Shown here piece after piece: positions 2,360 to 38,719 of a DNA stretch of 44,883 nt. Source of the DNA: a virus; IMG/VR virus record IMGVR_UViG_3300007538_000049, positions 1 to 44,883 of that record. One strand, 5' to 3'. The position numbers and the translations under genes are program-made. Position 1 is the first letter of the stretch. Every line of letters starts with the position of its first letter. The notes beneath the pieces were generated by a model, which made no database searches, was not told the DNA's origin, and saw only the letters and a program-made list of their open reading frames with translations.

Positions 2360-2369
2360 GAGTTATATA

Positions 2370-3212: not shown

Positions 3213-3237
3213 GAAGGATGAGTGGGAGGTCGCTGGC

Positions 3238-6187: not shown

Positions 6188-6229
6188 TTTGAGAGATCTC
6201 GTAACAAGGTACCTTTGCTTGGGGCTTTT

Positions 6230-7933
6230 ATGGCTAATACTATTAAAATTAAAAACTCTGGAGTTTCTTCTGCCACCCCTAACTCTTTAGAGTACGGTGA
6301 ACTCGCATTAAATTATAATGCGGGTAATTTATTTTATAAAGATTCTTTAGACGATATTGTTTCTACAAAATTAATTAAATCTATATCAGGAACCTCCGGA
6401 GAAATCTCTATTTCAGAATCTTCTGGTGAGTTCACTTTTTCATTACCAAGTTCAGTTTATATTTCATCTCTTTTTGTCGACAATGTTGAGCTAGATACTA
6501 CAGGTGCAACTCCAGATTATGTATTAACTTTTAATGGTACAAAATTTGCTCCAGCTCCAGCACCTACTGGTCCAACAGGACCAACTGGTCCTGACAGATT
6601 ATCTGTCTCAGATTCAGCACCTTCGTCACCTGACGCTGGTGATCTTTGGTTTAATTCTAATCAGGGCAGGCTTTTTTCCTATTATGATTCAACTTGGGTA
6701 GAAATAGCCGGTGCACAGGGGCCCACCGGACCAATAGGTCCAACTGGTCCTGATAGGTTGTCCGTTTCAGATACTGCCCCTTCTTCTGTTATATCTGGCG
6801 ACCTGTGGTTTGACTCTACTAATGCTAGACTTTACTCCTACTATGATTCAACCTGGGTGGAGATATCTGGTGCACAGGGACCAACTGGCCCAACAGGTCC
6901 AACTGGCCCAGACAGATTGCAGGTTTCAGATACTGCTCCTTCTTCTGTGGTATCTGGTGACCTGTGGTTTGATTCCACCAACGCCAGGCTTTTTTCCTAT
7001 TATGATTCAACTTGGGTAGAAATATCTGGTGCACAGGGACCAACTGGCCCAACAGGTCCAACTGGATTAACTGGATTAACTGGATTAACTGGTGCTACCG
7101 GACCTACTGGCCCAACTGGAGCTAGCGGTGTTGCTGGTGCAATAGATGATTTATCTGATGTAAATATAAACACTGCTACAAGTGGTGATCTTCTTAAATA
7201 CAATGGAAGTCAATGGATAAACGACGTTGCCGACCATGGTTCAATGACAGGGCTTACAGATGATGATCACACTCAGTACCTTTTAGCAGATGGTTCAAGG
7301 GCTGTAGGTGGATCTTTAATTCCTGATGCAAATGAGCAGTATGACTTAGGGTCATCAACCTATAGATTTAGAGACCTTTTTCTTAGCGGAACAAGTATCA
7401 ACTTAGGTGGAGTAATTATTTCTTCAGATGGATCTAGTCTCTCAATGCCGCCTATCTCTGAGATTAGTGGAGACTTCACGGTAGATACTAGCACTTTTCA
7501 CGTTGATGCAGACAACAACAGGGTTGGAGTGGGTACAGTATCCCCCAGTTATGACCTACATGTAGAAGGTGATGCCTTCATAAGCGATTCAATCCATACT
7601 ACAAATTCACTAATTGAATCTATTTCAATTAACATTAGCAGTAATAACCAAACTCTTGTTGACTCTTTTATCATGGGTAATTATCCAAGTGTTGAATATT
7701 TTATTCAAATAAAACAAGGATCTAAAATACGCTGTTCAAAGGTTCATGTTATCACCGATGGTACCAGCATAGATAAAACTGAGTATGGCGTTTTAGAGTT
7801 AAATGGTTCTATATCTGGTATTTCTGTTGAAGTATCTACAAGTGGAATCAATGGTTTGCTGTATGTAACGGTAACTGATGGGGCAACAACGTCCGCAAAA
7901 GTATCAGTTAACAAGACTGCTATAAAGGTATAG
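6230..7933 (+). CDS. Collagen-like tail fibre protein
   Basis: This protein has 567 residues from the ATG at 6230; a TTG at 6215 is in frame, but MANTIKIKNSG is the usual fibre start. After an N-terminal attachment-like region (residues 1-105) come near-identical modules of about 50 residues: GPTGPTGP, then DRLSVSD, SGDLWF, and FSYYDSTWVEI. A longer G-x-y run with GLTGLTGLTGATGPTGPTG follows. Then come fibre-shaft motifs (DDDHTQYLLADGSRAVGG, the DLGSS...FRDLFLSG type) and a C-terminal domain shared with the next gene. G-P-T triplets form collagen-like triple helices in phage fibres. Role: host binding. Pro and Thr in the repeats are potential targets for modification by the oxygenases and glycosyltransferases nearby (inference). 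Confidence 0.88.
   Translation: MANTIKIKNSGVSSATPNSLEYGELALNYNAGNLFYKDSLDDIVSTKLIKSISGTSGEISISESSGEFTFSLPSSVYISSLFVDNVELDTTGATPDYVLTFNGTKFAPAPAPTGPTGPTGPDRLSVSDSAPSSPDAGDLWFNSNQGRLFSYYDSTWVEIAGAQGPTGPIGPTGPDRLSVSDTAPSSVISGDLWFDSTNARLYSYYDSTWVEISGAQGPTGPTGPTGPDRLQVSDTAPSSVVSGDLWFDSTNARLFSYYDSTWVEISGAQGPTGPTGPTGLTGLTGLTGATGPTGPTGASGVAGAIDDLSDVNINTATSGDLLKYNGSQWINDVADHGSMTGLTDDDHTQYLLADGSRAVGGSLIPDANEQYDLGSSTYRFRDLFLSGTSINLGGVIISSDGSSLSMPPISEISGDFTVDTSTFHVDADNNRVGVGTVSPSYDLHVEGDAFISDSIHTTNSLIESISINISSNNQTLVDSFIMGNYPSVEYFIQIKQGSKIRCSKVHVITDGTSIDKTEYGVLELNGSISGISVEVSTSGINGLLYVTVTDGATTSAKVSVNKTAIKV
6563..7125 (+). repeat. Collagen-like module repeats
   Basis: Three copies of a roughly 160-base module (GPTGPTGP-DRL-SGDLWF-YYDSTWVEI), plus a terminal GLTGLTG/GPTGPTG stretch, lie within the fibre gene. 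Similar modules recur at about 10405-10770 in another fibre gene, suggesting module exchange between the two. Confidence 0.8.
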
Positions 7934-12021: not shown

Positions 12022-15000
12022 ATGGCACTTAATTTTCCTGATAGCCCATCAGTAAATGATACATATACAGTGGGGGACGCCAGCTGGATATGGGACGGAA
12101 CTGCCTGGATCAGACAGGTAGTTATAACGAGTGAACTATCTAATATTGGTGATGTAACAATCACAGATGTTTCTTCAGGAGACTTTCTTAGACACAATGG
12201 TTCTAATTGGATAAATGATCCTGTAGATTTAGCTACGGACACGGTCGGCAACTATGTTAAGTCATTAGTTGCTGGAACTGGTGTTACACTTACCGATAAT
12301 TCTGGCGAGTCCGCTACGCCAACAATTGCAATCGGTCAGCCAGTAGGTACAACTGACAATGTCACATTCAACAATGTAACTTCAGATCTTACAGGTGACG
12401 TTACGGGTAACGTTACTGGTAATGTAACAGGTAACCTTACAGGTGACGTAACAGGTGATGTAACAGGAGATGTCACTGGTAACCTTACTGGTAATGTTAC
12501 TGGAAATGTAACAGGTAACCTAACCGGTGACGTTAGTGGGGATGTTACTGGTAACCTTACTGGCAATGTAACAGGTGATGTAACGGGTAATGTTACTGGA
12601 AATGTAACAGGTAACCTAACCGGTGACGTTAGTGGGGATGTTACGGGTAACCTTACTGGCAATGTAACAGGTGATCTTACAGGTGATGTAACGGGTAATG
12701 TTACTGGCAACCTTACAGGCAATGTAACCGGTGATGTAACTGGGAACGCAGATACTGCAACGACACTTGCTACGCCCAGGACAATTCAGATTTCTGGAGA
12801 TGTAGCAGGCTCAGCATCTTTTAATGGTTCTAGTGATATAAATATTAGTGCAACCATACAAGCTGACAGTGTTGCCCTTGGTTCAGACACAACTGGAAAC
12901 TATGTCAATTCTCTGGTTGCTGGAACTGGAATTAGTCTTACGAACAACTCGGGAGAGGGAGCTACGCCGACTATAGCTGTTAATACTGATGCTATAGCGA
13001 CTAAAACTTATGTTGATTCTATAGCTTCAGGTATACATTGGCACGAAGCTGTTGACCTAGCAACAGCTGCTGCCCTAGGAAATACTCCATCTTACGATAA
13101 TGGCACTAGTGGAGTTGGCTCAACTTTATCTGCCACTACCAATGGCAGGCTAAATATAGATGGCGCAAATGCAACTAATGGCGATAGAATATTGGTTAAG
13201 GATCAGTCATCAGCAGTTCAGAATGGTATATATACAGTTACTGATCAGGGTTCTTCAACAACTACTTGGGAGTTGACAAGAGCCACAGATGCAGACGGAA
13301 ATATTGATTCTGTTAATGCCGGCGATGCTGTATTTGTATTGTCTGGTACAAATAATAATAATCAAGGTTTTGTTGTAACATCACAAGGTTCTGGAACTAA
13401 TGAAGTTCATACTATAGGTACAGATTCTATAACATATACCCAATTTACAGGAACCAATACAATAACTCCAGGTACAAATCTTGAAAGAAATGGTAATACT
13501 CTAGATGTAGCTGGTGAATTAACGGGTTTAACTTCTGTTACTGCAACTCATTTATATGGTGATTTAACCGGTGATGTTACTGGTGATGTTTACTCGTCAA
13601 ACGGAACATCAAAAGTTTTAGAGTCTGGTACGGATGGAACAGATGCAAGCTTTACTGGAAGTGTTACCGGAAATGTAACAGGTAACGTTTATGGCGATCT
13701 CACTGGTGATGTAACAGGTGATGTTACTGGTGATCTCACTGGAAATGTAACTGGAAATTTAACTGGTTTAGTTTACAGTAATGAAGCCACACCATCTGTT
13801 GTTGTTGATAATATAAATAAAAGTTTTAATGGTGATTTAACAGGTAATGTAACTGGGGATGTTACGGGTAACCTTACTGGAAATGTAACAGGTGATGTTA
13901 CAGGCAATGTAACTGGTGATGTTACTGGTGATCTTACTGGAAATGTAACAGGTAATGTAACGGGCGATTTGACTGGTGACGTTACCGGTAATGTAACGGG
14001 TAACGTGACAGGTGATGTTACGGGTAATGTTACTGGAAATGTTACCGGCAATGTCACGGGTAATCTTACAGGCGATGTAACCGGTGATTTAACAGGGGGT
14101 GTCACGGGTAATGTAACTGGAAATGTCACTGGTGATGTTACAGGTAATGTCACTGGTAATCTTACTGGTAACGTTACTGGTGACTTAACCGGTGATGTCA
14201 CCGGCGACGTTACGGGTAACATTTATAGCCAAGACGCCACACCAGTTCTATTAGTCGATTCCCTAAATAGGACTTTTACCGGAGATTTAACTGGCGATGT
14301 TGATGGCGACTTATTGGGCAATGTTACTGGTAATGTAACGGGTGATCTTACGGGTGATGTAACAGGAAATGTTACGGGTAATGTTACGGGCAATGTCACA
14401 GGTAATGTCACAGGTAATGCAAGCACAGCTTCAGCCTGGCAAACTTCAAGAACAATATCATTATCTGGTGATGTTACTGGTAGTGTTTCTGTTGATGGAT
14501 CTGAAAATGTTTCAATAACTACTACTATTCAGCCAAATTCAGTCGCACTAGGTACAGATACTACTGGAAATTATGTGTCTGGTGCAGCAGCCGGTACCGG
14601 TGTGTCGCTGTCATTTACTGCTGGTGAAGGCGCAACTCCGACTTATTCAATTGGTCAGGCTGTAGAAACAACTTCTGACGTAACCTTTAACACCGTTACT
14701 GCTGATGTCACAGGTGACCTTACTGGTAACGTAACTGGTAATGTGACAGGTAACGTAACTGGATCAGCAGATTCCTGGACTACTTCCAGGACAATAACCT
14801 TAGGTGGAGATTTAAACGGTTCTGTTTCGATAGATGGTTCAGCAGATGTGACCCTAACCGCTACAGTCGCAGCTGATTCAGTTACTCTTGGTACGGATAC
14901 TACTGGAAATTATGTTGAGTCAATTACAGCTGGCACTGGCGTAACCGTTACTTCCGGCACTGGCGAAGGTGCATCAACTACAGTAGCTATTGGGCAATCA

Positions 15001-16455
15001 GTAGAAACTTCTGCTACACCAAACTTTAATGGTGCGACCCTAGGTAATATGCAGTTTGGCATAACTGGGGCAAATGAAATAGACACAACATCAGATGGTT
15101 TAATTCTGGATTCTTCCTCTGGAGAAACTACAGTAGATGATAATCTTACAGTAACAGGCACCCTTGACGTAACTGGTGCTGCAGTGTTCAGCAGCACTAT
15201 TCAAGCTGGTGGCGACATCAATGCTAACAGCTACAAGGTTACAGGTTTGGGTGCACCTACGCAGGCATCTGATGCAGCCACAAAGGGGTATGTTGATGCT
15301 GTGTCCGAAGGTCTGCATGTTCACGAACAGGTTCATGCTATAGCAACGTCTTCTTTGGCGACAATAACTGGTGATACAGTAACTTATGACAATGGTACAA
15401 GTGGAGTAGGTGCAACTTTAACTTTGAGCACTGCTCTTGATCTTGCCGGTGGAGATATTGATGGCGATACTGATATTACTACTGGAGACAGAATCATTGT
15501 TGCTGGCGAATCAACATCTGCTCATAACGGTATTTATGTTGTAACTTCTACAACAGTTTTAACTAGAGCTGATGACTTTGATACTCCAACAGAGATGGCT
15601 GGTGGTGACTTTATATTCGTCACACACGGTACTCAGTATGCTGACACTGGCTGGGTTCTTTCTGAGCCTGTAAGCACTGTTGGCTCAGATGCCGTAACGT
15701 TCATTCAGTTCTCTGGTGCCGGTACGTACACTGCGGGGACTGGTCTTACTTTAACTGGTGGAGAGTTCTCTGTCAATGCCTCACAAACTCAGATTACAGC
15801 TGTTGGTACAGTTGCAACAGGTACGTGGCAGGGGTCGGTTATAGACTCAACTTATGGCGGTACTGGTGTAAACAACGGTGGTAGAACTATAACTGTTAAT
15901 ACCGGTGACCTAACTATAGAGGCAGCTACTCCAAATTCTTCAGTCACTTTCCCTGCTACGGGTACTATGGCAACACTTGCTGGAGTAGAAACTCTGACAA
16001 ATAAAACTCTTACTTCACCTACTGTTGATACTCCTGCTCTCACATTGTCTACCACAACATCCTCAACAGATGGACGTGTCGCATGGGATTCAACGAACGA
16101 CAAGATTGTTGTTGGTAATGGTACTGATGAGATTGAGTTTAGTTCCTCATTAGTTGGACTAAGTCAGCAGACAGCATCTTATACTTTAGCAATTGGTGAT
16201 AAGGATAAGATGGTAGAGGTGTCGAATGCTTCGGCAAATACTGTTACTGTTCCGCCTGAATCAAGTGTTGATTTCCCAGTTGGTTCACAGATTATGGTTC
16301 TTCAAACCGGTGCTGGTCAAACTACGATAGCTGCAGGGTCGGGTGTTACGGTTAATGCGACTCCAGGTCTTAAGTTGAGAGACCAGTGGTCAATGGTAAC
16401 TTTAATAAAGAGGGGTTCAGATTCTTGGGTTGCAACTGGAGACTTGTCAGCCTAA
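12022..16455 (+). CDS. Giant tail fibre with TG[N/D][V/L] repeats
   Basis: This protein has 1477 residues. The N-terminus (MALNFPDSPSVNDTYTVGD...WIWDGTAWI) is a common phage-fibre attachment domain. Blocks of a four-residue repeat T-G-[N/D]-[V/L] alternate with three short YS-x-DATP-type inserts of about 27 residues. Two copies of a larger knob-like domain follow the phrases TKTYVDSIASGIHWHEAVD and TKGYVDAVSEGLHVHEQVH, each with GDRI...NGIY motifs. The C-terminus (AIGDKDKMVEVSNASANTVTVP) resembles known fibre tips. It probably forms a long trimeric beta-solenoid or beta-prism rod that binds the host. Confidence 0.88.
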   Translation: MALNFPDSPSVNDTYTVGDASWIWDGTAWIRQVVITSELSNIGDVTITDVSSGDFLRHNGSNWINDPVDLATDTVGNYVKSLVAGTGVTLTDNSGESATPTIAIGQPVGTTDNVTFNNVTSDLTGDVTGNVTGNVTGNLTGDVTGDVTGDVTGNLTGNVTGNVTGNLTGDVSGDVTGNLTGNVTGDVTGNVTGNVTGNLTGDVSGDVTGNLTGNVTGDLTGDVTGNVTGNLTGNVTGDVTGNADTATTLATPRTIQISGDVAGSASFNGSSDINISATIQADSVALGSDTTGNYVNSLVAGTGISLTNNSGEGATPTIAVNTDAIATKTYVDSIASGIHWHEAVDLATAAALGNTPSYDNGTSGVGSTLSATTNGRLNIDGANATNGDRILVKDQSSAVQNGIYTVTDQGSSTTTWELTRATDADGNIDSVNAGDAVFVLSGTNNNNQGFVVTSQGSGTNEVHTIGTDSITYTQFTGTNTITPGTNLERNGNTLDVAGELTGLTSVTATHLYGDLTGDVTGDVYSSNGTSKVLESGTDGTDASFTGSVTGNVTGNVYGDLTGDVTGDVTGDLTGNVTGNLTGLVYSNEATPSVVVDNINKSFNGDLTGNVTGDVTGNLTGNVTGDVTGNVTGDVTGDLTGNVTGNVTGDLTGDVTGNVTGNVTGDVTGNVTGNVTGNVTGNLTGDVTGDLTGGVTGNVTGNVTGDVTGNVTGNLTGNVTGDLTGDVTGDVTGNIYSQDATPVLLVDSLNRTFTGDLTGDVDGDLLGNVTGNVTGDLTGDVTGNVTGNVTGNVTGNVTGNASTASAWQTSRTISLSGDVTGSVSVDGSENVSITTTIQPNSVALGTDTTGNYVSGAAAGTGVSLSFTAGEGATPTYSIGQAVETTSDVTFNTVTADVTGDLTGNVTGNVTGNVTGSADSWTTSRTITLGGDLNGSVSIDGSADVTLTATVAADSVTLGTDTTGNYVESITAGTGVTVTSGTGEGASTTVAIGQSVETSATPNFNGATLGNMQFGITGANEIDTTSDGLILDSSSGETTVDDNLTVTGTLDVTGAAVFSSTIQAGGDINANSYKVTGLGAPTQASDAATKGYVDAVSEGLHVHEQVHAIATSSLATITGDTVTYDNGTSGVGATLTLSTALDLAGGDIDGDTDITTGDRIIVAGESTSAHNGIYVVTSTTVLTRADDFDTPTEMAGGDFIFVTHGTQYADTGWVLSEPVSTVGSDAVTFIQFSGAGTYTAGTGLTLTGGEFSVNASQTQITAVGTVATGTWQGSVIDSTYGGTGVNNGGRTITVNTGDLTIEAATPNSSVTFPATGTMATLAGVETLTNKTLTSPTVDTPALTLSTTTSSTDGRVAWDSTNDKIVVGNGTDEIEFSSSLVGLSQQTASYTLAIGDKDKMVEVSNASANTVTVPPESSVDFPVGSQIMVLQTGAGQTTIAAGSGVTVNATPGLKLRDQWSMVTLIKRGSDSWVATGDLSA
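12388..12750 (+). repeat. 12-base tandem repeats coding TG[N/D][V/L], block 1
   Basis: About thirty consecutive four-residue units. Some 40-60-base stretches recur almost exactly (for example from about 12517 and again from about 12613), indicating recent expansion by unequal exchange. Confidence 0.85.
13832..14223 (+). repeat. 12-base tandem repeats coding TG[N/D][V/L], block 2
   Basis: A second long block of the same tetrapeptide, with shorter blocks at about 13669-13770, 14281-14420 and 14707-14763. Synonymous codons vary between units more than the residues do, so the peptide period is under selection. Confidence 0.85.
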
Positions 16456-16505: not shown

Positions 16506-18683
16506 ATGGCAGTTAAAGACTATGGTGGTAAAAAGCCAGTAATAAATGGTGTTACAAGATCCCTTGATTATGATAATAGTATATTCTTTGCCTTTGATGT
16601 GGAATATGCAGGTAGAGATGGTTCTACCGACTTGGTTTACACAACTGAGGCGTATGTTGACGGGGTATTGGATCACACAGAAACTGGAACTTCTGCACTT
16701 GCCACAAATACTTGGGTTGCTACCGAAGGAACTACCTACACTTTCAAATGCTACGTCACGTCAGCTGGTGTTGACAGTGATATTTATGAGTTTTCTACCC
16801 CATATAAGGTTATTGGTGCACCAGGATCTGTGGGAACAATAACCACTTCGGTAAGCAGTTCAACTGCCTTAACACTATCTTGGTCTGAAGCAACTGATCT
16901 TGGATCTGATGATACAGCTAATGTTAGTTATCAGATTTATTACAGGGTTAATGGTACCTTACCTTATACTTTATTTGGTGGAGTTAGTTACGGTACAACT
17001 TCAGAGACTGTTACTGGACTTGATTCAAATAATACTTATGATTTTAAGGTTGTTACAAAGAATAGTTTGTTTACCTCCGATGATACTACCTCTTCATCCA
17101 CTGTCGCTAATATCCCACTTTTAGTTCCTCCTTCAGATGTAACTGGTCTTACAGCAACTCCAGGCACAACAACGGATCCTGGTACATTCAGTATATCTTG
17201 GACTGGGGTTGGTGCGGGCGGAACGGGAAATGACGCTATAGGTAATATAACTTATACTGTATATTATGGTACAACTTCTAGTCCATCAACGTCTTTAACT
17301 ACGACTTCTTCAACTTCGGCATCATTTGATTCCGCTACTTTGGGTCAAAACTATTGGTTTAAAGTTGTAACAAACAACTCCGCTCAGTCAAGTACTGGTT
17401 TAACAGTTGCCGGTGGATATGCAACTGGTGTTCCTGGTACTGTGACTTCTGAGAGTTTTTCTAGAACTGGTTCTGGACAAGTTTTTGTAGATTGGACAGA
17501 TGCTTCAACGACAGCCGGTGAAACCGCTGCTAATATCAGCTACGAATTGTCTTATGGGGTAGGGAACTATGACACCGTTGCCTCTCTAACTACCGGAACT
17601 AGCTTAACGCTTACTGGGTTAACTGGTGGTTCGACTTACCAATTCAGGGTAAGAGTTAAGAATACTAGAACAAATGTTTTTGGGTCATATTCAGATTTAG
17701 GAACTTTCTTAGTTTTTGGTACTCCAGATACACCAACTGGGTTAACTAGCACCCATGAGGCTACTGGAGAGAACGGAATTGATACTGTAGGAGAAAGCTT
17801 CGTTGCTTCGTCTGATCATACTGTAGAGGTTGGTCAGGGTTATGGTAATAAAATTACTGTTACATGGAGTGCAGCTAGTGGTTCTGGTGATTCAAGTGTA
17901 ACCTATGATCTTGAAGTGGCTACAACGACAAACAGTGCTGATTCCGAAGCTTCGGCGTCTTTCAGTAATCTTGTTACTGGAACTGCATCTACTTCTTATA
18001 GTCATACAGGATTAACATCTGGTACATTCTATTCGTATAGGGTTAGAACTAATAACGATGTAGCTAGTTCTTCTTACAGTTCTCCTACGAGCTGGCAAAT
18101 TGCCGCAAATATTCCTGATGATCCAAGTAGTATTTCTGTCTCTTCAACTGGAACAACTGGTGAAATTACCATTACGTGGTCCCATACAGATTGGGGTTCC
18201 TCCACTAGTACCGGAACACCTGCAAGAAACTATAAGATATATAAGGCTTTAACACCTTTGGATTCAACTACAACTTATACTCTTGTTGGTATTGTAGCTG
18301 ATTCTCTCAATTCTCAAACCTTTACTGTTACAGGTTTAGATAATGACGAGTATTTTATTAGTGTAAATCCTTATAACGGATATTATGAAAGAAACGGTGC
18401 AGGACAAGCAACTTCACCGTTCTTCCCGCCATATTTCCCACCGTTCTTCCCGCCGTTCTTCCCGCCATACTTCCCACCATATTTCCCGCCATTCTTCCCG
18501 CCATACTTCCCACCTTATTCCCCACCGTTCTTCCCGCCATTCTTCCCGCCATTCTTCCCGCCATTCTTCCCGCCGTTCTTCCCGCCATACTTCCCACCGT
18601 GGTTCCCACCATTCTTCCCGCCATACTTCCCGCCATACTTCCCACCATACTTCCCGCCATCCTTCCCTGCAGGTAGGCAGTAG
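16506..18683 (+). CDS. FN3-repeat virion protein with an F/Y-F-P-P repeat tail
   Basis: This protein has 725 residues. A beta domain (about residues 1-95) is followed by about five FN3-like domains (about 100-635), recognisable from phrases such as LTLSWSEATDLG, NTYDFKVVTKNS, GSTYQFRVRVKN and TFYSYRVRTNND. The last 85 residues are almost only F/Y-F-P-P tetrapeptides, ending SFPAGRQ. FN3 domains are common decorations of tail proteins that bind carbohydrates at the cell surface. The aromatic/proline tail has no family I recognise; it may be an adhesive or structural segment, and Pro and Tyr in it could be modified. The ATG at 16506 follows a GGTAGG site weakly. Confidence 0.8.
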   Translation: MAVKDYGGKKPVINGVTRSLDYDNSIFFAFDVEYAGRDGSTDLVYTTEAYVDGVLDHTETGTSALATNTWVATEGTTYTFKCYVTSAGVDSDIYEFSTPYKVIGAPGSVGTITTSVSSSTALTLSWSEATDLGSDDTANVSYQIYYRVNGTLPYTLFGGVSYGTTSETVTGLDSNNTYDFKVVTKNSLFTSDDTTSSSTVANIPLLVPPSDVTGLTATPGTTTDPGTFSISWTGVGAGGTGNDAIGNITYTVYYGTTSSPSTSLTTTSSTSASFDSATLGQNYWFKVVTNNSAQSSTGLTVAGGYATGVPGTVTSESFSRTGSGQVFVDWTDASTTAGETAANISYELSYGVGNYDTVASLTTGTSLTLTGLTGGSTYQFRVRVKNTRTNVFGSYSDLGTFLVFGTPDTPTGLTSTHEATGENGIDTVGESFVASSDHTVEVGQGYGNKITVTWSAASGSGDSSVTYDLEVATTTNSADSEASASFSNLVTGTASTSYSHTGLTSGTFYSYRVRTNNDVASSSYSSPTSWQIAANIPDDPSSISVSSTGTTGEITITWSHTDWGSSTSTGTPARNYKIYKALTPLDSTTTYTLVGIVADSLNSQTFTVTGLDNDEYFISVNPYNGYYERNGAGQATSPFFPPYFPPFFPPFFPPYFPPYFPPFFPPYFPPYSPPFFPPFFPPFFPPFFPPFFPPYFPPWFPPFFPPYFPPYFPPYFPPSFPAGRQ
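18421..18671 (+). repeat. 12-base tandem repeat encoding FFPP/YFPP
   Basis: Twenty tandem units of the form TTCTTCCC[G/A]CC, coding FFPP, YFPP, one YSPP and one WFPP, plus a degenerate last unit. Units are nearly identical in DNA, which suggests recent expansion. The antisense frames are open only because of this repeat. Confidence 0.9.
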
Positions 18684-18701
18684 GACCAAAAGTAATGGTT
18701 G

Positions 18702-18731
18702 CCCCCCTCTGGCTTGATTGTCAGAGGGGGG
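18702..18731 (+). terminator. Strong GC stem-loop after the FN3-FFPP gene
   Basis: CCCCCCTCTG at 18702-18711 pairs perfectly with CAGAGGGGGG at 18722-18731, with a 10-base loop. It lies just past the stop at 18683, where a terminator is expected. No T-run follows on the plus strand, so it could instead be an mRNA-stabilising or processing structure. Confidence 0.6.
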
Positions 18732-18735
18732 TAGT

Positions 18736-18743
18736 GGTATAAT
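18736..18743 (+). promoter_or_regulatory. TATAAT -10 element directly before an ATG
   Basis: GGTATAAT ends only 6 bases before the ATG at 18750, after the stem-loop. Transcription would begin at or very near the start codon, giving a leaderless message. No ribosome site lies before that ATG. Confidence 0.45.
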
Positions 18744-18749
18744 ATATGG

Positions 18750-19385
18750 ATGAGTGAAATTATGGAAGAAAAATCATTAATTAATCCAGGCCACTTTGGT
18801 GATTCTGTAGATAATATAGTCATTGAGAAAAACTTTGTTGAACTCAATGACTTAAAGGTCCTTCAGGATTTTTTCCCCACAATAGATAGATGGGAAAATC
18901 CTATGGAAGATGAGTTCAATGAAGATGGTACATGTACCTATGACGCTGCGTATTGGTGGGATAGGATGTGTTCGGGTAGAATAATAGGTGAAATAAATCC
19001 CGATATATATAATCTGATAGATAAATATGTTAAGAAAATGCAGTACTTACTGGAAGATAAGTTTAATGTAAAACTTTATCAGAGACCACCTGTTTTAATT
19101 AGATGGCTTCCGGGTAACGAGCAGCAACCCCATGCCGATAAACAGTTAAACGATGGCTCACCCAACCCTTTTCCAACTTATGACATTAATTCTATTGTAT
19201 ATTGGAATGGTAATTTTGAAGGAGGAGAGTTTTATTATCCAGAGTTTGATATAGAGTTAAAGATTGAACCTGGTTTAGCTGTTGCCCATCCGGGCGACAT
19301 ACACTATCTGCATGGTGTAAAAAGAATGATATCAGGAGAGAGATGGACTACACCATCATTTTATACGATAACTGAGGTTATGTAG
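18750..19385 (+). CDS. 2OG-Fe(II) oxygenase, prolyl 4-hydroxylase type (copy 3)
   Basis: This 211-residue protein has iron ligands H128-x-D130 (QQPHAD) and H188 (YLHGVKRMISGER), and R198 as the 2-oxoglutarate ligand. The core strand reads GNFEGGEFYYPEFD. It begins the dense oxygenase cluster that runs to 21466. The ATG at 18750 lies directly after a -10-like box and may be read leaderless; a second ATG at 18762 is possible. The substrate is unknown, but the gene follows the proline-rich FN3-FFPP protein. Confidence 0.86.
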   Translation: MSEIMEEKSLINPGHFGDSVDNIVIEKNFVELNDLKVLQDFFPTIDRWENPMEDEFNEDGTCTYDAAYWWDRMCSGRIIGEINPDIYNLIDKYVKKMQYLLEDKFNVKLYQRPPVLIRWLPGNEQQPHADKQLNDGSPNPFPTYDINSIVYWNGNFEGGEFYYPEFDIELKIEPGLAVAHPGDIHYLHGVKRMISGERWTTPSFYTITEVM

Positions 19386-19973
19386 TTGAGAACAATTAAA
19401 ATTAATGATATTTATATCGTAATAAATTTTTTTTCTCAAGATGAAATTAATTTCTTTTCTAAATTTTTTGAGATAGCTGAATATATAGATGGTGACTCAG
19501 TAGGTGGTTTGGAAGAAGCTTTAGATTGGTCAATGTCTTCAAAAAGTGAAGATAATTTAGCCTTAGTAAATAAAGCTCAATCTATAATGGTTCAAAAGTA
19601 TACTCTATCAAAGCAACTGATTGAGAAAAGCTTTAACTGTGCCCTTAGTAGCGAAACAATTGGTACGATATCTCGATGCAGGGAGGGATGGGGACTGCAT
19701 CGCCATATTGATAATTATGATGGTACAGGGCTAGATATACCAACACCTGCTGGACATCCCAGTAGGGACATAAGCACCATTATTTATTATGGTACCGAAT
19801 TTACTGGTGGAGAACTAGAGTTTCCAGATTTGTCAATAGAGATTAATCCTCTTCCAGGATCATTGATATATTTTCCTTCAGATAAAAATCATCAACATCT
19901 TGTAAACCCTGTGTTATCTGGCTATAGGTTTACTTCCACTGGTTTTTGGAATATATTGGAAAAATATGAATAA
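19386..19973 (+). CDS. 2OG-Fe(II) oxygenase (copy 4), TTG start
   Basis: This 195-residue protein uses a TTG start directly after the previous stop, with GAGG just upstream; the first internal ATG (residue 50) would remove part of the fold. Ligands: H107-x-D109 (HRHIDN), H171 (HQHLVNPVLSGYR) and R181. The core strand is GTEFTGGELEFPDL. It is a clear paralogue of the next gene: both start with a KIKINDI-type segment, share a GHPSRD/GHPRRD loop and end in SAGFW or STGFW. The genes overlap by 8 bases. Confidence 0.85.
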   Translation: MRTIKINDIYIVINFFSQDEINFFSKFFEIAEYIDGDSVGGLEEALDWSMSSKSEDNLALVNKAQSIMVQKYTLSKQLIEKSFNCALSSETIGTISRCREGWGLHRHIDNYDGTGLDIPTPAGHPSRDISTIIYYGTEFTGGELEFPDLSIEINPLPGSLIYFPSDKNHQHLVNPVLSGYRFTSTGFWNILEKYE

Positions 19974-20571
19974 AAAGATAAAAATAAAAGATATACATAT
20001 TATGTATAATTTATTTAGTGAAGAAGAGATGTCTATTTTTTCTGAAGCGTTTTCTTCTTTTACCTTTAAGGCAAGCTCTTGGGGTATTCCGGAGAAACCT
20101 AGAGATAACCATTCGTCCATTGACTGGTCTCATGCAAGTAAGGATCAACACTTAGCCAGTTTAGCTTCTGAAGTTGATAGTATTTTAAAGATTAAAAACA
20201 ACTTCTTAAGAAAAGAAATGGAAAAAGATTTTGACTGCTTGTTAGACCATGAGGAAAACTCTTCAATAATTAAGTCTGGACCTGGTTTTTCTATTGATTT
20301 GCATTGGGATCAAATTGGTTCTAGCGGTGATTTACTGCCAACGTTTGGTGGGCATCCTAGAAGGGACTATAGTACTGTAATATATTTTAATGATAATTTT
20401 ACTGGTGGAAATTTAATATTTCCGTATTTAGGAATAGAAATTGAACCGGTAGCAGCTTCTGTGGTATACTTTCCGTCAACTGACAAATACGAGCACGCCG
20501 TGACTGAGATTCTATCTGGACATAGAATAACATCAGCTGGTTTCTGGCATGCCGCCGAGAAAGGTAATTGA
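19966..20571 (+). CDS. 2OG-Fe(II) oxygenase (copy 5)
   Basis: This 201-residue protein has ligands H113-x-D115 (LHWDQ), H177 (YEHAVTEILSGHR) and R187. It is a tandem duplicate of the preceding gene, much diverged; the GGHPRRDYSTVIYFNDNFTG stretch shows the relationship best. The start overlaps the previous stop. The whole group 18750-21466 reads like one translationally coupled operon. Confidence 0.85.
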   Translation: MNKKIKIKDIHIMYNLFSEEEMSIFSEAFSSFTFKASSWGIPEKPRDNHSSIDWSHASKDQHLASLASEVDSILKIKNNFLRKEMEKDFDCLLDHEENSSIIKSGPGFSIDLHWDQIGSSGDLLPTFGGHPRRDYSTVIYFNDNFTGGNLIFPYLGIEIEPVAASVVYFPSTDKYEHAVTEILSGHRITSAGFWHAAEKGN

Positions 20572-20578
20572 TTTTAAT

Positions 20579-21466
20579 ATGCGCAAAGAACACTTAGGTG
20601 ATCCATCATTAGGAATTGTGGTATATAAAGATACGATATCCCAAGAAGATAATATACCACTTAGGTTGGAGACATCTTTGAGAGATAGTAGTCATGAGTA
20701 TTTTAAGTGGCACGATTCCCTCGTGGGAGAAGGTGTTAAGATGCCAGACTATAGAGACTGTGTAGACTTTAAGATGGATGAAAAATTTATTACCGGAACA
20801 CCTTCTGAATTTTCAGATCTTGTAGATGTCTACACTACAGTTGCATCTATGCAGAAAGACTGCCTTAAGGATTATTGTTCTACATATGGTATATCGATGA
20901 ACTATATGGAGGCAATTAACTTTGTTAGATATGGAGTTAAAGAGCACTTCAGTGTCCATTCCGATCACGGATTCTCTTATATTTGCACAGTGTCTTGCGT
21001 ATCTTATATAAATGATGATTACGAGGGTGGGGAGCTATATTTCCCTCACCTTGATATAACATGGAAGCCAGAAGCTGGTGACAGTGTATTCTTCCCTTCA
21101 ACATATATCTTTGCACATGCGTCTAAGCCGGTTACGTCAGGTATAAAATATAGTGCAGTAACGATGTTTGATTACAATGACGATGCGCATCAACATGCTG
21201 GCTTCTCAAGAGATTTTGGACAAAAGTATGTTCAACCAGAGAAGCCTTCAATTGATCCTGACACTGCTCCAGTTGTTAAGAGCGGTGGAACTGCCCCAGC
21301 TAAGAAGTCTGATACCGCTGTTGGTATGGATGAATCAAAGTTAAGGCAGATAATTCAAGAGGAAATCCAAAGCTATGCCATGGAAAGCTATAAGCAGTGG
21401 CAGGCAAATGGTGGCGATATGACTAACATGGGTCAATATCAGCAATATGTAGCAGGAGGAAAGTAG
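20579..21466 (+). CDS. 2OG-Fe(II) oxygenase (copy 6) with C-terminal extension
   Basis: This protein has 295 residues from the ATG at 20579; an ATG at 20549 inside the previous gene is possible. Ligands: H127-x-D129 (VHSDHG) and H180 (FAHASKPVTSG). K190 stands where most copies have Arg. The NDDYEGGELYFPHLD strand is typical. After the core comes a flexible Pro/Lys/Ala linker (about 210-250) and a helical, Gln-rich tail (SKLRQIIQEEIQSYAMESY). Such a tail is unusual among its neighbours and may bind a partner or a virion part. Confidence 0.86.
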   Translation: MRKEHLGDPSLGIVVYKDTISQEDNIPLRLETSLRDSSHEYFKWHDSLVGEGVKMPDYRDCVDFKMDEKFITGTPSEFSDLVDVYTTVASMQKDCLKDYCSTYGISMNYMEAINFVRYGVKEHFSVHSDHGFSYICTVSCVSYINDDYEGGELYFPHLDITWKPEAGDSVFFPSTYIFAHASKPVTSGIKYSAVTMFDYNDDAHQHAGFSRDFGQKYVQPEKPSIDPDTAPVVKSGGTAPAKKSDTAVGMDESKLRQIIQEEIQSYAMESYKQWQANGGDMTNMGQYQQYVAGGK

Positions 21467-22191
21467 TGTCCAAGCTTACGTTAATAAGAACACATCAGAT
21501 CTCGCCTGAGGTTAAACAGTCAAGACTGAGAAGAGACTGGATGGATGATACCTATAACAAACATGCCTATAGATGTCTTCCACTCAGTGCTGCAAATGTA
21601 AATGGTTGGGAAGCCATTTTGCAGCAGGACGTTGTTGTCACTTGGGAAGGTGGCAACAACGTCCCACAAATCATTGAGGGTGATGTTTATCGTGGAAGAA
21701 CTATCGCTGACTGCAGTAAAATAGGTATGATTGATTTTCATATAGGATGGACGTTTAAAACAGAGCCTGGATTCCATACATGGATAAGCGGTTCACCTAA
21801 CTACTTTGTTGATGGTGCAGTTCCTTTGACAGCTAGCGTACCTTCAGACTGGTGGCCAGATGAGGTTCATGAAGGCTGGAAAATCACCAAGGTAAACGAA
21901 CCTGTAGTATTCCCTGCAGGCATGCCTTTTGTATTTTTCATGGTTTATCCTTCAACACTTATGCCGGAGATGGATGTTGAAGTAGAGTATCTTTGGGATA
22001 AACCGGATCTAATGAATGAAAGAACGTCATATAATCAGGCTAAAATGAAGAAATCACGAGATGAGCCTTGGACATGGATGAACGGCATAAGAACAGGTTT
22101 AAATGAAAAAGGTGATAGAATAGGCCCTAGACATGAGGGCTTGCCTACCCTAAAAGAACCAGAGATCAAGGAGGTCCCCTACAATGAATGA
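21466..22191 (+). CDS. DUF6065 family protein (copy 1)
   Basis: This 241-residue protein has a GTG start that overlaps the previous stop (TAGTG), with AGGAGGAAAG upstream. Family features as I recall them: RRDWMDDTYNKHAYRCLP near residue 22, then NVNGWEAI, FKTEPGFHTWISGSPNYF in the middle, and VVFPAGMPFVFFMVYP towards the end. The biochemical function of DUF6065 is unknown to me. It follows an oxygenase gene here and again at 40179, so it may act with 2OG-Fe enzymes. Confidence 0.8.
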   Translation: MSKLTLIRTHQISPEVKQSRLRRDWMDDTYNKHAYRCLPLSAANVNGWEAILQQDVVVTWEGGNNVPQIIEGDVYRGRTIADCSKIGMIDFHIGWTFKTEPGFHTWISGSPNYFVDGAVPLTASVPSDWWPDEVHEGWKITKVNEPVVFPAGMPFVFFMVYPSTLMPEMDVEVEYLWDKPDLMNERTSYNQAKMKKSRDEPWTWMNGIRTGLNEKGDRIGPRHEGLPTLKEPEIKEVPYNE

Positions 22192-22465
22192 TGTTCCTAG
22201 TAAAATGAAAGTTATAACTCCCTTAGGTAGTGAAGAGTTTACGTTAGAAAAGGGTGAAGATAAGTTGACCCTGTCAATATTCAAGGGTTCTGCGGATTTA
22301 AATATTGTTATAGATGATGAAGACTTACTTTTGGCAGAAGGTGAATTAGATGTTCCTTTTGATTGTAGGTTAATTTTTTCACTAGACAGTGATAAATGTG
22401 TGGTTAAATTAGAAGATCCTACTTTAGATGAAGTTTATCTTGAATCAATATGCGAGGTTGTGTAA
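22184..22465 (+). CDS. Small acidic beta-rich protein, unknown
   Basis: This 93-residue protein starts with ATG 8 bases inside the end of the DUF6065 gene, after an AAGGAGG site. It is strongly acidic, with alternating hydrophobic and charged residues (ADLNIVIDDEDLLLAEGELD) that suggest a small beta-sandwich. No family recognised. Its TAA overlaps the ATG of the next gene (TAATG), so it is translationally coupled to the GPx-like protein and may form a complex with it. Confidence 0.7.
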   Translation: MNDVPSKMKVITPLGSEEFTLEKGEDKLTLSIFKGSADLNIVIDDEDLLLAEGELDVPFDCRLIFSLDSDKCVVKLEDPTLDEVYLESICEVV

Positions 22466-23085
22466 TGTCTATATATGATGTACAGGTTAAGTCTATAGAT
22501 GACGAAGATAATTTTATGGAACAGTTTAAGGGTAAGGTAACTCTTATTGTTAATACTGTATCTAAATATAATTATACACCGCAGTGTTCCACTTTCTGGT
22601 CGTATGCAAGATCTGTTAGGCATTTCTGGCAGCTTCAAAAGCTTCAAGACGAATTCGGGGATAGAGGATTCAGCGTCGTTGCTTTCCCCTGTAATCAGTT
22701 TGTTCAGGGCCTTATGGAGACTGGTACAAATGAAGAAATAAGCTCCTTCATGAAAGAAACATATCCATTTATTACTTTTCCTATAGCTGAAAAGGTTGAC
22801 GTTAATGGACCGAATGAATGTGAAGTTTATTCCTTATTAAAGGGTAAAGCTTTAAGAAATAAGTCCGACAACATGGCTGATAACTCTCAGGCAGCACAGG
22901 ATGGATGGAATCAAGAGGGCGCAGCCTTGGCTAGAATACCCCACGTATGGGAGATGTTTGTTGTTGGTAGAACTGGGACAATGATAGGAAGATTCAATTG
23001 GCAGGCAATGCCACTAGACGATGTTCCTTTGACCACAGGAGAAAGTTGGACAATTAGAGAATGTATAGATGAGGTTCTGGGTTAG
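22465..23085 (+). CDS. Glutathione peroxidase-like protein with displaced catalytic cysteine
   Basis: This protein has 206 residues from the ATG at 22465. It matches GPx at KGKVTLIVNTVSK, DEFGDRGFSVVAFPCNQF, GTNEEI and FPIAEKVDVNGPNECEVY. The usual SKCGFTPQ reads SKYNYTPQC: the peroxidatic Cys is Tyr 35, and a Cys stands at 41. An insert rich in aromatic residues follows (FWSYARSVRHFWQLQKLQ), and the last third has an extra segment before WEMFVVGRTGTMIGRF. It may be inactive, use C41 or C76, or serve a structural role. It is a distant paralogue of the gene at 3238. Confidence 0.75.
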   Translation: MSIYDVQVKSIDDEDNFMEQFKGKVTLIVNTVSKYNYTPQCSTFWSYARSVRHFWQLQKLQDEFGDRGFSVVAFPCNQFVQGLMETGTNEEISSFMKETYPFITFPIAEKVDVNGPNECEVYSLLKGKALRNKSDNMADNSQAAQDGWNQEGAALARIPHVWEMFVVGRTGTMIGRFNWQAMPLDDVPLTTGESWTIRECIDEVLG

Positions 23086-24735: not shown

Positions 24736-25848
24736 ATGAGCGATACAATGAGTGCGCAGCAGCAAGAACAGCAGGATTATGATTTACCCCCGGGTGCTTT
24801 TCTCTCTAATATAATATTTCCAGATACACCTATTATTGGTGATGATGAATTAAAAGAAATATCAGAGTTCAAAGTTGAAAACCTTGGCGGTGGAATTCTA
24901 ATATTTAAAAACGTACTTAAGTTTGATGAAGAACCGGTATACCAGTATCTAGATGACAGAGCTGCGAAGTCTCATCAAAATAGGTGGGAATATATTGAAG
25001 CTGAAGATGGTGAGACTTACGGTATAAATGAAGATGGGTTCAGATATAGACCAGAAGACATTCCCGCTACGCCTGTTAGAATTCTTCATCCGATAGATCC
25101 AGATACACCTGATAATATTCGTGACTTTTTCTATAATATGGAAGATACTATTTATAAGTGTCTGATTAAGTATGTTGATCATTTTCCTCTTATCGTAGGG
25201 TGTTTGTGGTGGAAAAATAGGGGCCACATTCTTAGGTATCAAGACCAAGGTGTGCTGGGTGCCCATTGTGATAATGATACAAACTATAAAGTTACAGAAG
25301 GTGTTAGATATATGCCTAGGGGTCAGATGGCAGCCAGACAAACGTGTGGAGCATTAGTGTATCTAAATGATTCTGTTGATTCTGAGGATGATTTAGACGG
25401 TAGAAATTTTGTTGGTGGTCATTTGAGATTCTTCCACTTAAATATTGACTATAAGCCAGAAAAAGGCGATATAGTTTTCTTTCCTACAAATTATATGGCC
25501 TCACATGATGTTGACAGAATGGAAGCAGGCGTTAGGTATAGTTATCTTTCTTTCTTTGGTCAGGGATCTCCTCATAGAGAGGCAAATATAGAAATAGCTG
25601 AAACAGATGCCTCTACCCAATGGTGTCCTGCTGTGTGGATGAACAATATATACGATGACTATGAGCGCTACTGTAAGTCTGAGTACTCAAGATTTACGAC
25701 TGGTGAAGAGACCTATATTGGTATAAACCCAGTCTATCAGGGTAGATGTGTTGCTCAGTATGGTACAACTCATGAGGCGGAGGAGATTCCTGGAACGGAC
25801 GCTGCGAACTGCGGCACTGATCCGGTTATCATAGGTCAGGAGCAGTAA
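24736..25848 (+). CDS. 2OG-Fe(II) oxygenase, long WWK-GH subfamily (copy 7)
   Basis: This 370-residue protein is the longest oxygenase here. An N-terminal extension of about 45 residues precedes a domain shared by the next three genes. Its mark is CLWWKNRGHILRYQDQG, followed by H177-x-D179 (GAHCDND), a long loop with a VYLNDSVDSE strand, H257 (ASHDV) and R267 (GVRYSY). The C-terminal 90 residues include several Cys. AGGAAGGG precedes the ATG. The four tandem copies suggest duplication followed by substrate specialisation. Confidence 0.86.
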   Translation: MSDTMSAQQQEQQDYDLPPGAFLSNIIFPDTPIIGDDELKEISEFKVENLGGGILIFKNVLKFDEEPVYQYLDDRAAKSHQNRWEYIEAEDGETYGINEDGFRYRPEDIPATPVRILHPIDPDTPDNIRDFFYNMEDTIYKCLIKYVDHFPLIVGCLWWKNRGHILRYQDQGVLGAHCDNDTNYKVTEGVRYMPRGQMAARQTCGALVYLNDSVDSEDDLDGRNFVGGHLRFFHLNIDYKPEKGDIVFFPTNYMASHDVDRMEAGVRYSYLSFFGQGSPHREANIEIAETDASTQWCPAVWMNNIYDDYERYCKSEYSRFTTGEETYIGINPVYQGRCVAQYGTTHEAEEIPGTDAANCGTDPVIIGQEQ

Positions 25849-26736
25849 ATGTTACCCAATAACTGTGAGTTGTTGGGTAATGGAATAGTTTTATTTAGGA
25901 ATAAAATTAATGTACCTGATGGCATAACTGATTATCTTTTAAAACTAAAAAACGATGCTAGGGAAAAGCATTATTCATATGTTTATGATGAAGATGGGAA
26001 TGCTCTTTATGCTACTAACAAAAGTGGACATCGTTTTAAGATAGAGGATATTGATAAAAGCTGCAGTAGAATAACTGATTTTTATGATCACTTTGAATCA
26101 GACTGGCAGAAAGAATTCTTTTCTCACTGTGAAGAGATGCTGTACCGATCTATGATTGAGTATGCATCAATATATCCTATGATCTTACCTTGTTTATGGT
26201 GGAAAACTCAGGGGCATGTACTAGCATATGGGGCTGGGGCAGATCTAGGTCTGCATTGTGATAACGACATAAATTTTTCTCCTGGATTTGAGCCAGACTA
26301 TCAACTAGGGATACGTCATGTACTAGCTGCAATAACGTATTTCAATTCTTCTACAGAAGAATATGAGGATGGGAATTTTACTGGTGGAGAGATTTACTTT
26401 CCTTACGCAGAATTAGTTTATAAACCACAGCGTGGTGATGTGTTAATGTTTCCAGCTAACTTTATGTGTGCGCATGAAGTTAAGGGTGTAAAAGAGGGCA
26501 ACAGATTTGCTTATCTTGAATATTTTGGTCAGGGTTCTTCCGATCCGACTAGGGGTGTTCAGGTTTCTGATCCAGTAGATGGAATATTTGGTGGTCAGGT
26601 GTGGATGCCAGATCTATTTGTTGATTATCAAAATTATGTGATAGAATTTTATGGAGAAACTTATGATGATCATAAGTTAATGCCGGTTAGTAGAGATTTT
26701 CATAGTTCTAATACAAAGCAAGAGGTTGAGAAATGA
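25849..26736 (+). CDS. 2OG-Fe(II) oxygenase, WWK-GH subfamily (copy 8)
   Basis: This 295-residue protein starts directly after the previous stop. Shared marks: CLWWKTQGHVLAYGAG, H136-x-D138 (LHCDND), GNFTGGEIYFPYAEL, H209 (CAHEVKG) and R219 (NRFAYLEYFGQGS). It lacks the long N-terminal extension of the previous gene. The pattern YxGYxF with DIxxxxxR around residues 58-75 recurs in all four copies and may shape the active-site lid. Confidence 0.86.
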   Translation: MLPNNCELLGNGIVLFRNKINVPDGITDYLLKLKNDAREKHYSYVYDEDGNALYATNKSGHRFKIEDIDKSCSRITDFYDHFESDWQKEFFSHCEEMLYRSMIEYASIYPMILPCLWWKTQGHVLAYGAGADLGLHCDNDINFSPGFEPDYQLGIRHVLAAITYFNSSTEEYEDGNFTGGEIYFPYAELVYKPQRGDVLMFPANFMCAHEVKGVKEGNRFAYLEYFGQGSSDPTRGVQVSDPVDGIFGGQVWMPDLFVDYQNYVIEFYGETYDDHKLMPVSRDFHSSNTKQEVEK

Positions 26737-27614
26737 TTTATAATGATGTTGAGGCCGAGCATTTAGGTGGCGGCGTTGTGCTTTTTCGAAATGCTGTAGA
26801 CTACGATTTTGATTGGACTTATGAGATTTTTTGTAGAGCCTTAGACGAAGAGCAGGCTGCTATGTATGATATAACTTCTGATCCAGAAACTGGTGAGGAA
26901 ACTTACATGAATAAGAGTGGATATCTTTTTAGTAAAGACTCTATATATTCCATGCCCAGAAGGGCCTCAATGATGCATCAAGACCCTAGGGATGAGGTTC
27001 ACAAGTTATTCAATTTTTTAGAGGAGTCTAAAGATAAATATTTATTAAAATACTTTGAGATGTTTCCTTTAGCTTACAATTGTGTATGGTGGAAGGTAAA
27101 GGGGCATGTAGTATCTTATAGGGATGGCGTGTACCTTGGTAGTCATTCTGACACAAGCGCAGAGTATATATATGGAGTACATTCTACTAGAGATGAACTA
27201 GCTCTTAGGAGTATAATTTCTTGTCTAGTTTATGTTAATTCTTCCGTTGATTCTGAGGAGGAGTTGACAGGTAACAATTTTACTGAAGGTCATCACTATT
27301 TTAATTACTTAGATATTGATTACCAACCTAAAGCAGGAGATATACTTATGTTTCCTTCTAATTTCATGGCTGCGCATGAAGTTAAGCCTGTTGGAAAGGG
27401 GCATAGGGTTTCATATCTCGGATGGTATAGTCAGGGAACTCCTAATCCTTCAGTGTATGAAGACGTATGTGACCCAGTTAAAGAGCCGGAAAAAGCAAGA
27501 ATTAGTACTAACGTCTACATGCCCACACTCAGAGAAGATTATAGAGAATATTTATTAGCCAAAGGTTATGATAAGAGCTCTGAGCAGTACAAGGTAACAA
27601 ATCTTAACACGTAG
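26733..27614 (+). CDS. 2OG-Fe(II) oxygenase, WWK-GH subfamily (copy 9)
   Basis: This 293-residue protein overlaps the previous gene as ATGA. Marks: CVWWKVKGHVVSYRDG, H138-x-D140 (SHSDTS), H215 (AAHEVKPVGKGHR) and R225. The usual TGGE core strand reads TEGHHYFNYLDI, so this copy has changed near the active site. The rest of the fold appears complete, so it is probably active with altered specificity. Confidence 0.85.
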   Translation: MIYNDVEAEHLGGGVVLFRNAVDYDFDWTYEIFCRALDEEQAAMYDITSDPETGEETYMNKSGYLFSKDSIYSMPRRASMMHQDPRDEVHKLFNFLEESKDKYLLKYFEMFPLAYNCVWWKVKGHVVSYRDGVYLGSHSDTSAEYIYGVHSTRDELALRSIISCLVYVNSSVDSEEELTGNNFTEGHHYFNYLDIDYQPKAGDILMFPSNFMAAHEVKPVGKGHRVSYLGWYSQGTPNPSVYEDVCDPVKEPEKARISTNVYMPTLREDYREYLLAKGYDKSSEQYKVTNLNT

Positions 27615-27657
27615 GAAAGTATATGGGCTTTGATAAAATGAAATGAAAGAGGTTATT

Positions 27658-28440
27658 ATGGAATCAGTTCACTTAGGTATGGGTATAGTCGCATGTGAAA
27701 ATGTTTTAGACATTGATAATGATTTAGTTACAGAGTACACATCTTGGCTTAAGAAGAATGAAGAAGATTCTTTTACATATTACGAGGAAGATGGCGTAAA
27801 GTATGCTAGAAATAAGACAGGATTTAAATTTAGATTAGATGATATTAATTTAGCTCCACAAAGATTTCTGGATCTTAAAGGGGAGCAAATAGGCAGAGCG
27901 CCAAAGCCTGAATGGGTAGAATTTATACAAAAGTGTGAGGATGCAATCTACGATGCGTTGGTTGAGTACTGCGCCTACTTTCCAGATGCTGCCACTACAG
28001 CTTGGTGGAGACCAAAAGGCCATATCGCTGGTTATGAAGATGGTCAGCATATAGGTGCTCACTGTGATGATCAGATTCCTTGGGAATGGGGATCTAGACC
28101 TCAAAATCAAGTCTCTATGCACAACAGCACAAGTGTAAATTTATATTTAAATGAATGCGGAAAAGACTATGAGGGTGGGCAAATGCATTTTCCAAATATA
28201 AATGTTGAGTATAGTCCTAAGCCTGGGACTGTATTAATATATCCTTCTAATTACATAGGTAGACATGAGGTGTACCCAGTTACTAGTGGAGCTAGGTACG
28301 CATTTTTGACAATGGCTTGTTATGGTGTAGACTTTGAAAGAGATGAAGTTATAGGTCAAGAAAATCCATATAGAATATGGATGCCAGATCTTATAGAGGA
28401 TTCTAAAGCTAGAATGATGTCAGGAAATTATAAGTTATAA
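27658..28440 (+). CDS. 2OG-Fe(II) oxygenase, WWK-GH subfamily (copy 10)
   Basis: This protein has 260 residues from the ATG at 27658, which has AGAGG upstream; an ATG at 27643 lacks such a site. Marks: TAWWRPKGHIAGYEDG, H135-x-D137 (AHCDDQ), a DYEGGQMHFPNINVEY strand, H203 (GRHEVYPVTSGAR) and R213. It is the most divergent of the four tandem copies. The stop overlaps the start of the TauD-like gene (TAATG). Confidence 0.85.
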   Translation: MESVHLGMGIVACENVLDIDNDLVTEYTSWLKKNEEDSFTYYEEDGVKYARNKTGFKFRLDDINLAPQRFLDLKGEQIGRAPKPEWVEFIQKCEDAIYDALVEYCAYFPDAATTAWWRPKGHIAGYEDGQHIGAHCDDQIPWEWGSRPQNQVSMHNSTSVNLYLNECGKDYEGGQMHFPNINVEYSPKPGTVLIYPSNYIGRHEVYPVTSGARYAFLTMACYGVDFERDEVIGQENPYRIWMPDLIEDSKARMMSGNYKL

Positions 28441-38714: not shown

Positions 38715-38719
38715 TCCCT

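Follow-up and report, generated by a model that had tools for sequence, protein, structure and literature searches.

The window, i.e. the whole stretch of 44,883 nucleotides analysed here (viral record IMGVR_UViG_3300007538_000049), contains a gene for an fn3 protein that ends in an array of aromatic-proline units and is followed by a cluster of 2OG-Fe(II) oxygenase genes, one of which, named OG1, encodes a prolyl-4-hydroxylase (P4H)-like enzyme. The features to which the text refers are the following, by position in the window:

1628..3212, + strand, two 2OG-Fe(II) oxygenases, upstream of tail genes
6215..7933, + strand, collagen-like (Gly-Pro-Thr) tail-fibre protein (PF01391 4.3e-7; phrog tail fibre)
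12022..16455, + strand, 1477-aa tail-fibre-like protein with GNVT repeats (PHROGs), directly upstream of the array gene
16506..18683, + strand, fn3 protein with C-terminal aromatic-proline array (ATG start, 725 aa; PF00041 3.7e-21)
18420..18659, + strand, array of 20 units [F/Y/W]FPP (one YSPP), a 12-bp tandem repeat, codons 639-718
18660..18683, + strand, C-terminus SFPAGRQ-stop (..PPxFK instead in many relatives)
18698..18733, + strand, strong hairpin, terminator-like, with no T run (81-nt segment, MFE -32.3 kcal/mol, z -4.3)
18714..18743, + strand, sigma-70-like promoter match with extended -10, TGGTATAAT (10/12 matches, consensus only), 6 bp 5' of the first oxygenase
18750..19385, + strand, 2OG-Fe(II) oxygenase 1 of the cluster (phrog_2297; local oxygenase HMM 7.8e-18)
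19386..19973, + strand, 2OG-Fe(II) oxygenase 2 (PF13640 1.1e-11)
19966..20571, + strand, 2OG-Fe(II) oxygenase 3 (PF13640 2.1e-9)
20549..21466, + strand, OG1, prolyl-4-hydroxylase-like enzyme (H137xD139, H190, K200)
21466..22191, + strand, DUF6065 protein (PF19541 2.2e-40)
22450..23085, + strand, glutathione peroxidase-like protein (PF00255 1.5e-23), present in 22/29 OG1 loci
24736..28440, + strand, four more 2OG-Fe(II) oxygenases (24736, 25849, 26733, 27643)
28440..29318, + strand, TauD-family 2OG dioxygenase (PF02668 3.1e-15)

The array protein and its surroundings

The earlier note on this DNA had described an fn3 protein with a C-terminal tail of twenty units coded by a 12-base repeat and with an oxygenase gene less than 70 bases downstream. 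All of this is borne out by the translation and by TRF, which places the 12-bp array at 18420-18667 (20.7 copies, 83% matches, score 298), and the ATG at 18750 lies 66 bp past the stop of the array gene. In the translated ORF 16506-18683 the tail reads SPFFPPYFPP...YFPPSFPAGRQ, with 19 of the 20 units in the form [F/Y/W]FPP and one YSPP. Position 1 of the unit alternates between F, Y and W, position 2 is TTC (Phe) in 19/20 units and positions 3-4 are Pro in 20/20, with Pro codons that differ at the wobble base (CCG/CCA 13:7; CCA/CCG/CCT 14:5:1). Since unit positions 2-4 are nearly constant while the wobble base of Pro varies freely, the array is under selection as a protein; an origin by chance or as a reading-frame artefact is ruled out by the codon pattern together with the recurrence of the array. 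A near-identical contig (L012) has YFPP at the place of the YSPP unit of the window, the two being separated by a single T-to-C change and the gene being otherwise codon-identical, and a further relative of the window (L428) has one extra unit and the C-terminus YFK. The window protein gave no match in PHROGs; its fn3 domain is that expected of FN3-containing phage structural proteins, and it is probably a virion or fibre protein.

Plant extensins and mussel foot proteins, with which the tail had been compared, are built of hydroxylated repeats, and they resemble the array in being low-complexity and rich in Pro and Tyr. The comparison is compositional only: Phe is dominant in the array, which contains no Ser-(Pro)4 (SPPPP) that could correspond to the Ser-Hyp4 of extensins, and no Lys, hence none of the Lys-rich (Lys/Tyr or Lys/Ser-rich) decapeptides of mussel proteins. 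Gly is absent from the window array and rare across arrays, so that the Gly at every third residue typical of collagen is also missing. Hydroxylation of Tyr to DOPA, also raised in the earlier note, is unsupported, as no tyrosinase-like gene was identified, and no 2OG P4H-type enzyme is known to make DOPA.

The window encodes about 14 2OG-Fe(II) oxygenases (12 PF13640 matches, the homologue at 18750, which has orthologues in 14 genomes including the window, and the TauD enzyme at 28440), nearly all of which keep the HxD...H...K/R pattern. A flavin-dependent tryptophan-halogenase-like gene (38711-40225; phrog_2928, 3.7e-99) adjoins the oxygenases at 36760 and 38094; aromatic residues or small molecules are conceivable targets of halogenation by its product. 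Two genes for glutathione-peroxidase-like proteins (3187-3867 and 22450-23085) lie beside oxygenase clusters, where these proteins perhaps shield the Fe(II) enzymes from peroxide. Strong hairpins and TATAAT-like boxes comparable to those of the window also lie in the gap that separates array gene and oxygenases at many other loci. A single operon is weakened by the intervening hairpin and promoter and, because these separate the genes, none can be called demonstrated; the array gene and the oxygenases are conserved neighbours, not clearly one operon.

Distribution of arrays and linkage to OG1

The earlier note had suggested a database search for the repeat and a comparison of its copy number in related phages. 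A pattern scan of IMG/VR with three [F/Y]FPP units returned at least 120 matches, and (F/Y)FPP-type arrays are present in more than 120 IMG/VR contigs; the two-unit pattern had no match in 120 random loci (1.0 Mb). In a set of 148 distinct array proteins, position 1 of the unit is F, Y, H or W, position 2 is F, position 3 is P and position 4 is P or missing (FFP units), with 4-34 units per array (median 12), and the C-terminus is FK or FR in 62/145. Relatives whose N-terminal parts share at least 95% identity differ in their number of units in several cases (23/28, 19/16, 11/16 and 21/24), a variation that, as expected, fits a slippage-prone tail tolerant of length change. The regions preceding the arrays fall into at least seven N-terminal families (BLAST clustering, OG1 loci), and fn3 and PASTA are among the Pfam names found in array proteins. 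In two contigs, L049 (3.6e-11) and L448, the array leads into an S74 chaperone domain that starts with S-D-V-R-D-K straight after PPAFK. S74 domains self-cleave, and autocleavage after PPAFK would give the same FK end as in the stop-terminated arrays, which points to array proteins being fibre or spike proteins with an exposed tail. Weak intein/Hint-like domains, below Pfam cut-offs, lie C-terminal to the array in four other contigs (L088, L044, L062 and L033), where they possibly split off and activate the C-terminus of the tail.

That the repeat belongs to no recognised family, as the earlier note had stated, agrees with every search made. Named phages gave no match by tblastn with the window protein and two other array proteins (effectively with their N-terminal parts only, owing to low-complexity masking) nor by megablast with the window region; a PDB sequence search with the array gave none, and the literature search returned no paper with FFPPFFPP, the matches for FFPP and phage being unrelated. 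No known Pfam or PHROG family, named phage or paper was thus found to describe the array. T4 gp23 (PF07068) had no match in 25 large array records, and no control matched either.

Oxygenases of the PF13640 family are found in 47/50 array-bearing records, typically with 5-9 genes each, as compared with 1/40 random IMG/VR records (Fisher p 9e-21) and 3/30 control records with GNVT tail-fibre repeats, 0/30 of which have an array (Fisher p 9e-15). Over 48 loci they lie mostly downstream of the array gene (203 vs 17 upstream), and the first same-strand oxygenase is at most 1 kb downstream in 29/48 loci and at most 100 bp in 14. A single-copy OG1 orthologue is present in 41/50 array records; the other nine are without OG1, and 3/50 lack any PF13640 match. 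In the reciprocal scan anchored on OG1, which covered IMG/VR and four MAG contigs, a same-strand array gene lies upstream in 44/44 of the loci whose upstream sequence reaches 4 kb or more (by contig name 8 are from the first array scan and 36 are new), the 14 array-less loci all having less than 4 kb upstream. Anchoring on DUF6065 gave an array in 42/46 loci that extend 5 kb or more upstream, and OG1 in 70/71. Other oxygenases used as anchors behaved differently: an array was found in 0/60 loci with an oxygenase of S-SCSM1 and in 0/9 with the window oxygenase at 36760, two whole records of the latter set having an array elsewhere. The genetic link between enzyme and array is strong. The scan of genome contigs with OG1 returned only four MAG contigs, likely binned phage DNA, three of them with an array. 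Array and OG1 stand together on contigs L502, L503 and L504, which were assigned to MAGs of Verrucomicrobiales, Chitinophagaceae and Gammaproteobacteria and are either mis-binned phage DNA or hints of hosts.

The only neighbours found in at least 28 of 29 non-redundant OG1 loci are OG1 itself, DUF6065 and two oxygenase clusters, and upstream gene families reach 14/29 at most. Since the N-termini of array proteins and the upstream genes vary around OG1, its constant partner is the array and not the domain that carries it. Part of the linkage may reflect common ancestry within a single phage group. In one genotype (L557 5781-8696; also L553, L558 and L559) intact OG1 and DUF6065 occur with no array in the 104.7 kb of one record, and a collagen-like GPTGATGPT protein is encoded directly upstream; this genotype is a natural test of substrate choice.

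OG1, DUF6065 and related enzymes

In 48 OG1 sequences the Fe(II) facial triad H137, D139 and H190 is invariant, as is the 2OG-binding K200, 10 residues past the distal His. The OG1 profile compared with the PDB has the P4H of Bacillus anthracis as its best match (8.6e-8), followed by lysyl and prolyl-3 hydroxylases. The AlphaFold model, with 162 residues at pLDDT of at least 90, is predicted to have the double-stranded beta-helix of P4H type with prolyl hydroxylases as closest relatives (Z up to 19.7, rmsd 3.3 over 199 residues), and the best Foldseek matches are an algal P4H with (Ser-Pro)5, the human C-P4H (collagen) and the P4H of PBCV-1. By profile, fold and active site OG1 is P4H-like, a shared fold alone being no proof of reaction. 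No OG1 match covering 80% of the protein was found in named phages. DUF6065 follows OG1 directly in 29/29 non-redundant loci; it had no match in named phages, no literature on it was found, and its model (pLDDT 77.5) has a dUTPase-like beta fold (Z 11.2, rmsd 4.0 over 125 residues, 8% identity), with no sequence match to a dUTPase.

Among the known enzymes, the bacterial P4Hs of B. anthracis and Pseudomonas putida are close to OG1 (Z 19.6) and are likewise cytoplasmic and protein-acting, but their substrate is EF-Tu (PDB titles), they are not phage-borne and no repeat protein adjoins them. The P4H of the chlorovirus PBCV-1 (fold match 5c5t, Foldseek 2.0e-9, Z 17.1) is, like OG1, encoded by a virus, which in that case infects eukaryotic algae and in which no aromatic-Pro array, oxygenase cluster or DUF6065 is known; its substrates are other proline repeats. 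Cyanophages such as S-SCSM1 share with the window many PF13640 genes, some beside tail-fibre genes, but no (F/Y)FPP array is present in seven such named oxygenase-bearing phage records, S-SCSM1 included.

A candidate tail-modifying system and its alternatives

In aquatic viruses, 2OG-Fe(II) oxygenases and P4Hs rank with the commonest auxiliary genes, and their role is mostly sought in host metabolism. The Baltic Sea is rich in viral P4H genes, the use of which "remains cryptic" (PMC9301287), and metabolic or iron-related roles have been favoured for viral oxygenases (PMC13184970). S-SCSM1 has 24 2OG oxygenases, and viral genes of this kind are described as ones whose functions "have not been specifically investigated" (PMC9602691). 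As a precedent for the modification of viral proteins by a virus-encoded P4H, only PBCV-1 was found cited, in whose proteins 4-hydroxyproline was reported according to PMC9301287 (citing Eriksson 1999).

In the reading that we prefer, the array would form an extended tail at the C-terminus of what is probably a phage fibre or spike protein and would be the substrate of the co-encoded OG1, which would hydroxylate the array prolines in the cytoplasm of the host during infection or assembly, perhaps helped by the neighbouring oxygenase paralogues; an array-type peptide (SPFFPPYFPPFFPP) is a candidate OG1 substrate. Proline hydroxylation favours trans, extended chains, and the hydroxylated aromatic-proline rod would be shown on the particle at the fibre end, as a length-variable adhesive or receptor-contacting tip that touches host surfaces. 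Hydroxylation, the location in the virion and adhesion are what we infer here. The proposal of the earlier note, that a nearby oxygenase hydroxylates the array prolines, gains strong genetic support from the two-way linkage with the P4H-like OG1, and we regard the hydroxylation of the array by OG1 as fairly probable. The account as a whole, from array tail through hydroxylation to display and adhesion, is only marginally favoured, if that, and for the more general form of it, a phage group with a cassette (OG1 P4H, paralogues, DUF6065) that modifies a modular, length-variable (F/Y)FPP tail on varied fibre proteins to give a hydroxyproline-rich aromatic tip, the chances appear evenly balanced.

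A broader action of OG1 and its paralogues on virion proteins, in which the array is one substrate among several or a secondary one, is rather unlikely; in its favour are the 5-14 oxygenase paralogues per record and the two collagen-like proteins, one encoded directly upstream in the array-less genotype and the other a fibre protein of the window itself (6215..7933) and a possible further hydroxylase substrate; against this stands the array gene upstream in all 44 OG1 loci of the reciprocal scan that reach 4 kb upstream, and many phages that lack OG1 have collagen-like fibres. It is unlikely that gene order alone accounts for the linkage, with the array gene as the last structural gene, the oxygenase block opening the next module and no interaction between the two. 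Such a layout is consistent with the strong hairpin and the promoter that separate the genes, in the window as in many relatives, with the genotype that has OG1 and no array, with the array-less S-SCSM1, where oxygenases lie beside tail fibres, and with the origin of all contigs from uncultured viruses of maybe one broad group. What argues against it is that the linkage holds at about 40-65% OG1 identity while the N-terminal domain of the array protein switches family, that only OG1, its paralogues and DUF6065, and none of the upstream families, are near-constant in the 29 neighbourhoods, and that the enzyme is specifically P4H-like. A service of the oxygenases to host metabolism (2OG/nitrogen balance, iron uptake or DNA repair) with an incidental neighbourhood, for which published proposals (PMC9602691; PMC13184970) and weak PiuC-like matches may be adduced, is improbable, since protein prolyl hydroxylases head both the profile and the fold matches of OG1 and the linkage to one structural repeat would be hard to explain.

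The linkage of array and OG1 suggests that these uncultured aquatic phages modify a portion of their own virions chemically, a role not previously assigned to such viral enzymes, and the function of a viral P4H becomes testable through a proline-rich, probably particle-borne partner with which it is almost always genetically linked. If true, phages would perform collagen-type protein hydroxylation on their own particles, in the first phage virion protein-hydroxylation system, and the array would be a new aromatic-proline material and a new class of adhesive or structural repeat; virus-encoded prolyl hydroxylation being already known, it is the array as a substrate class and the phage setting that would be new. 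As a minor observation, a glycosyltransferase-2-like protein is encoded at 10888-11946 of the window; it matches PF23558, the peptide-binding TPR domain of P4H, weakly (19.9 bits, less than the cut-off), and it might glycosylate hydroxyproline.
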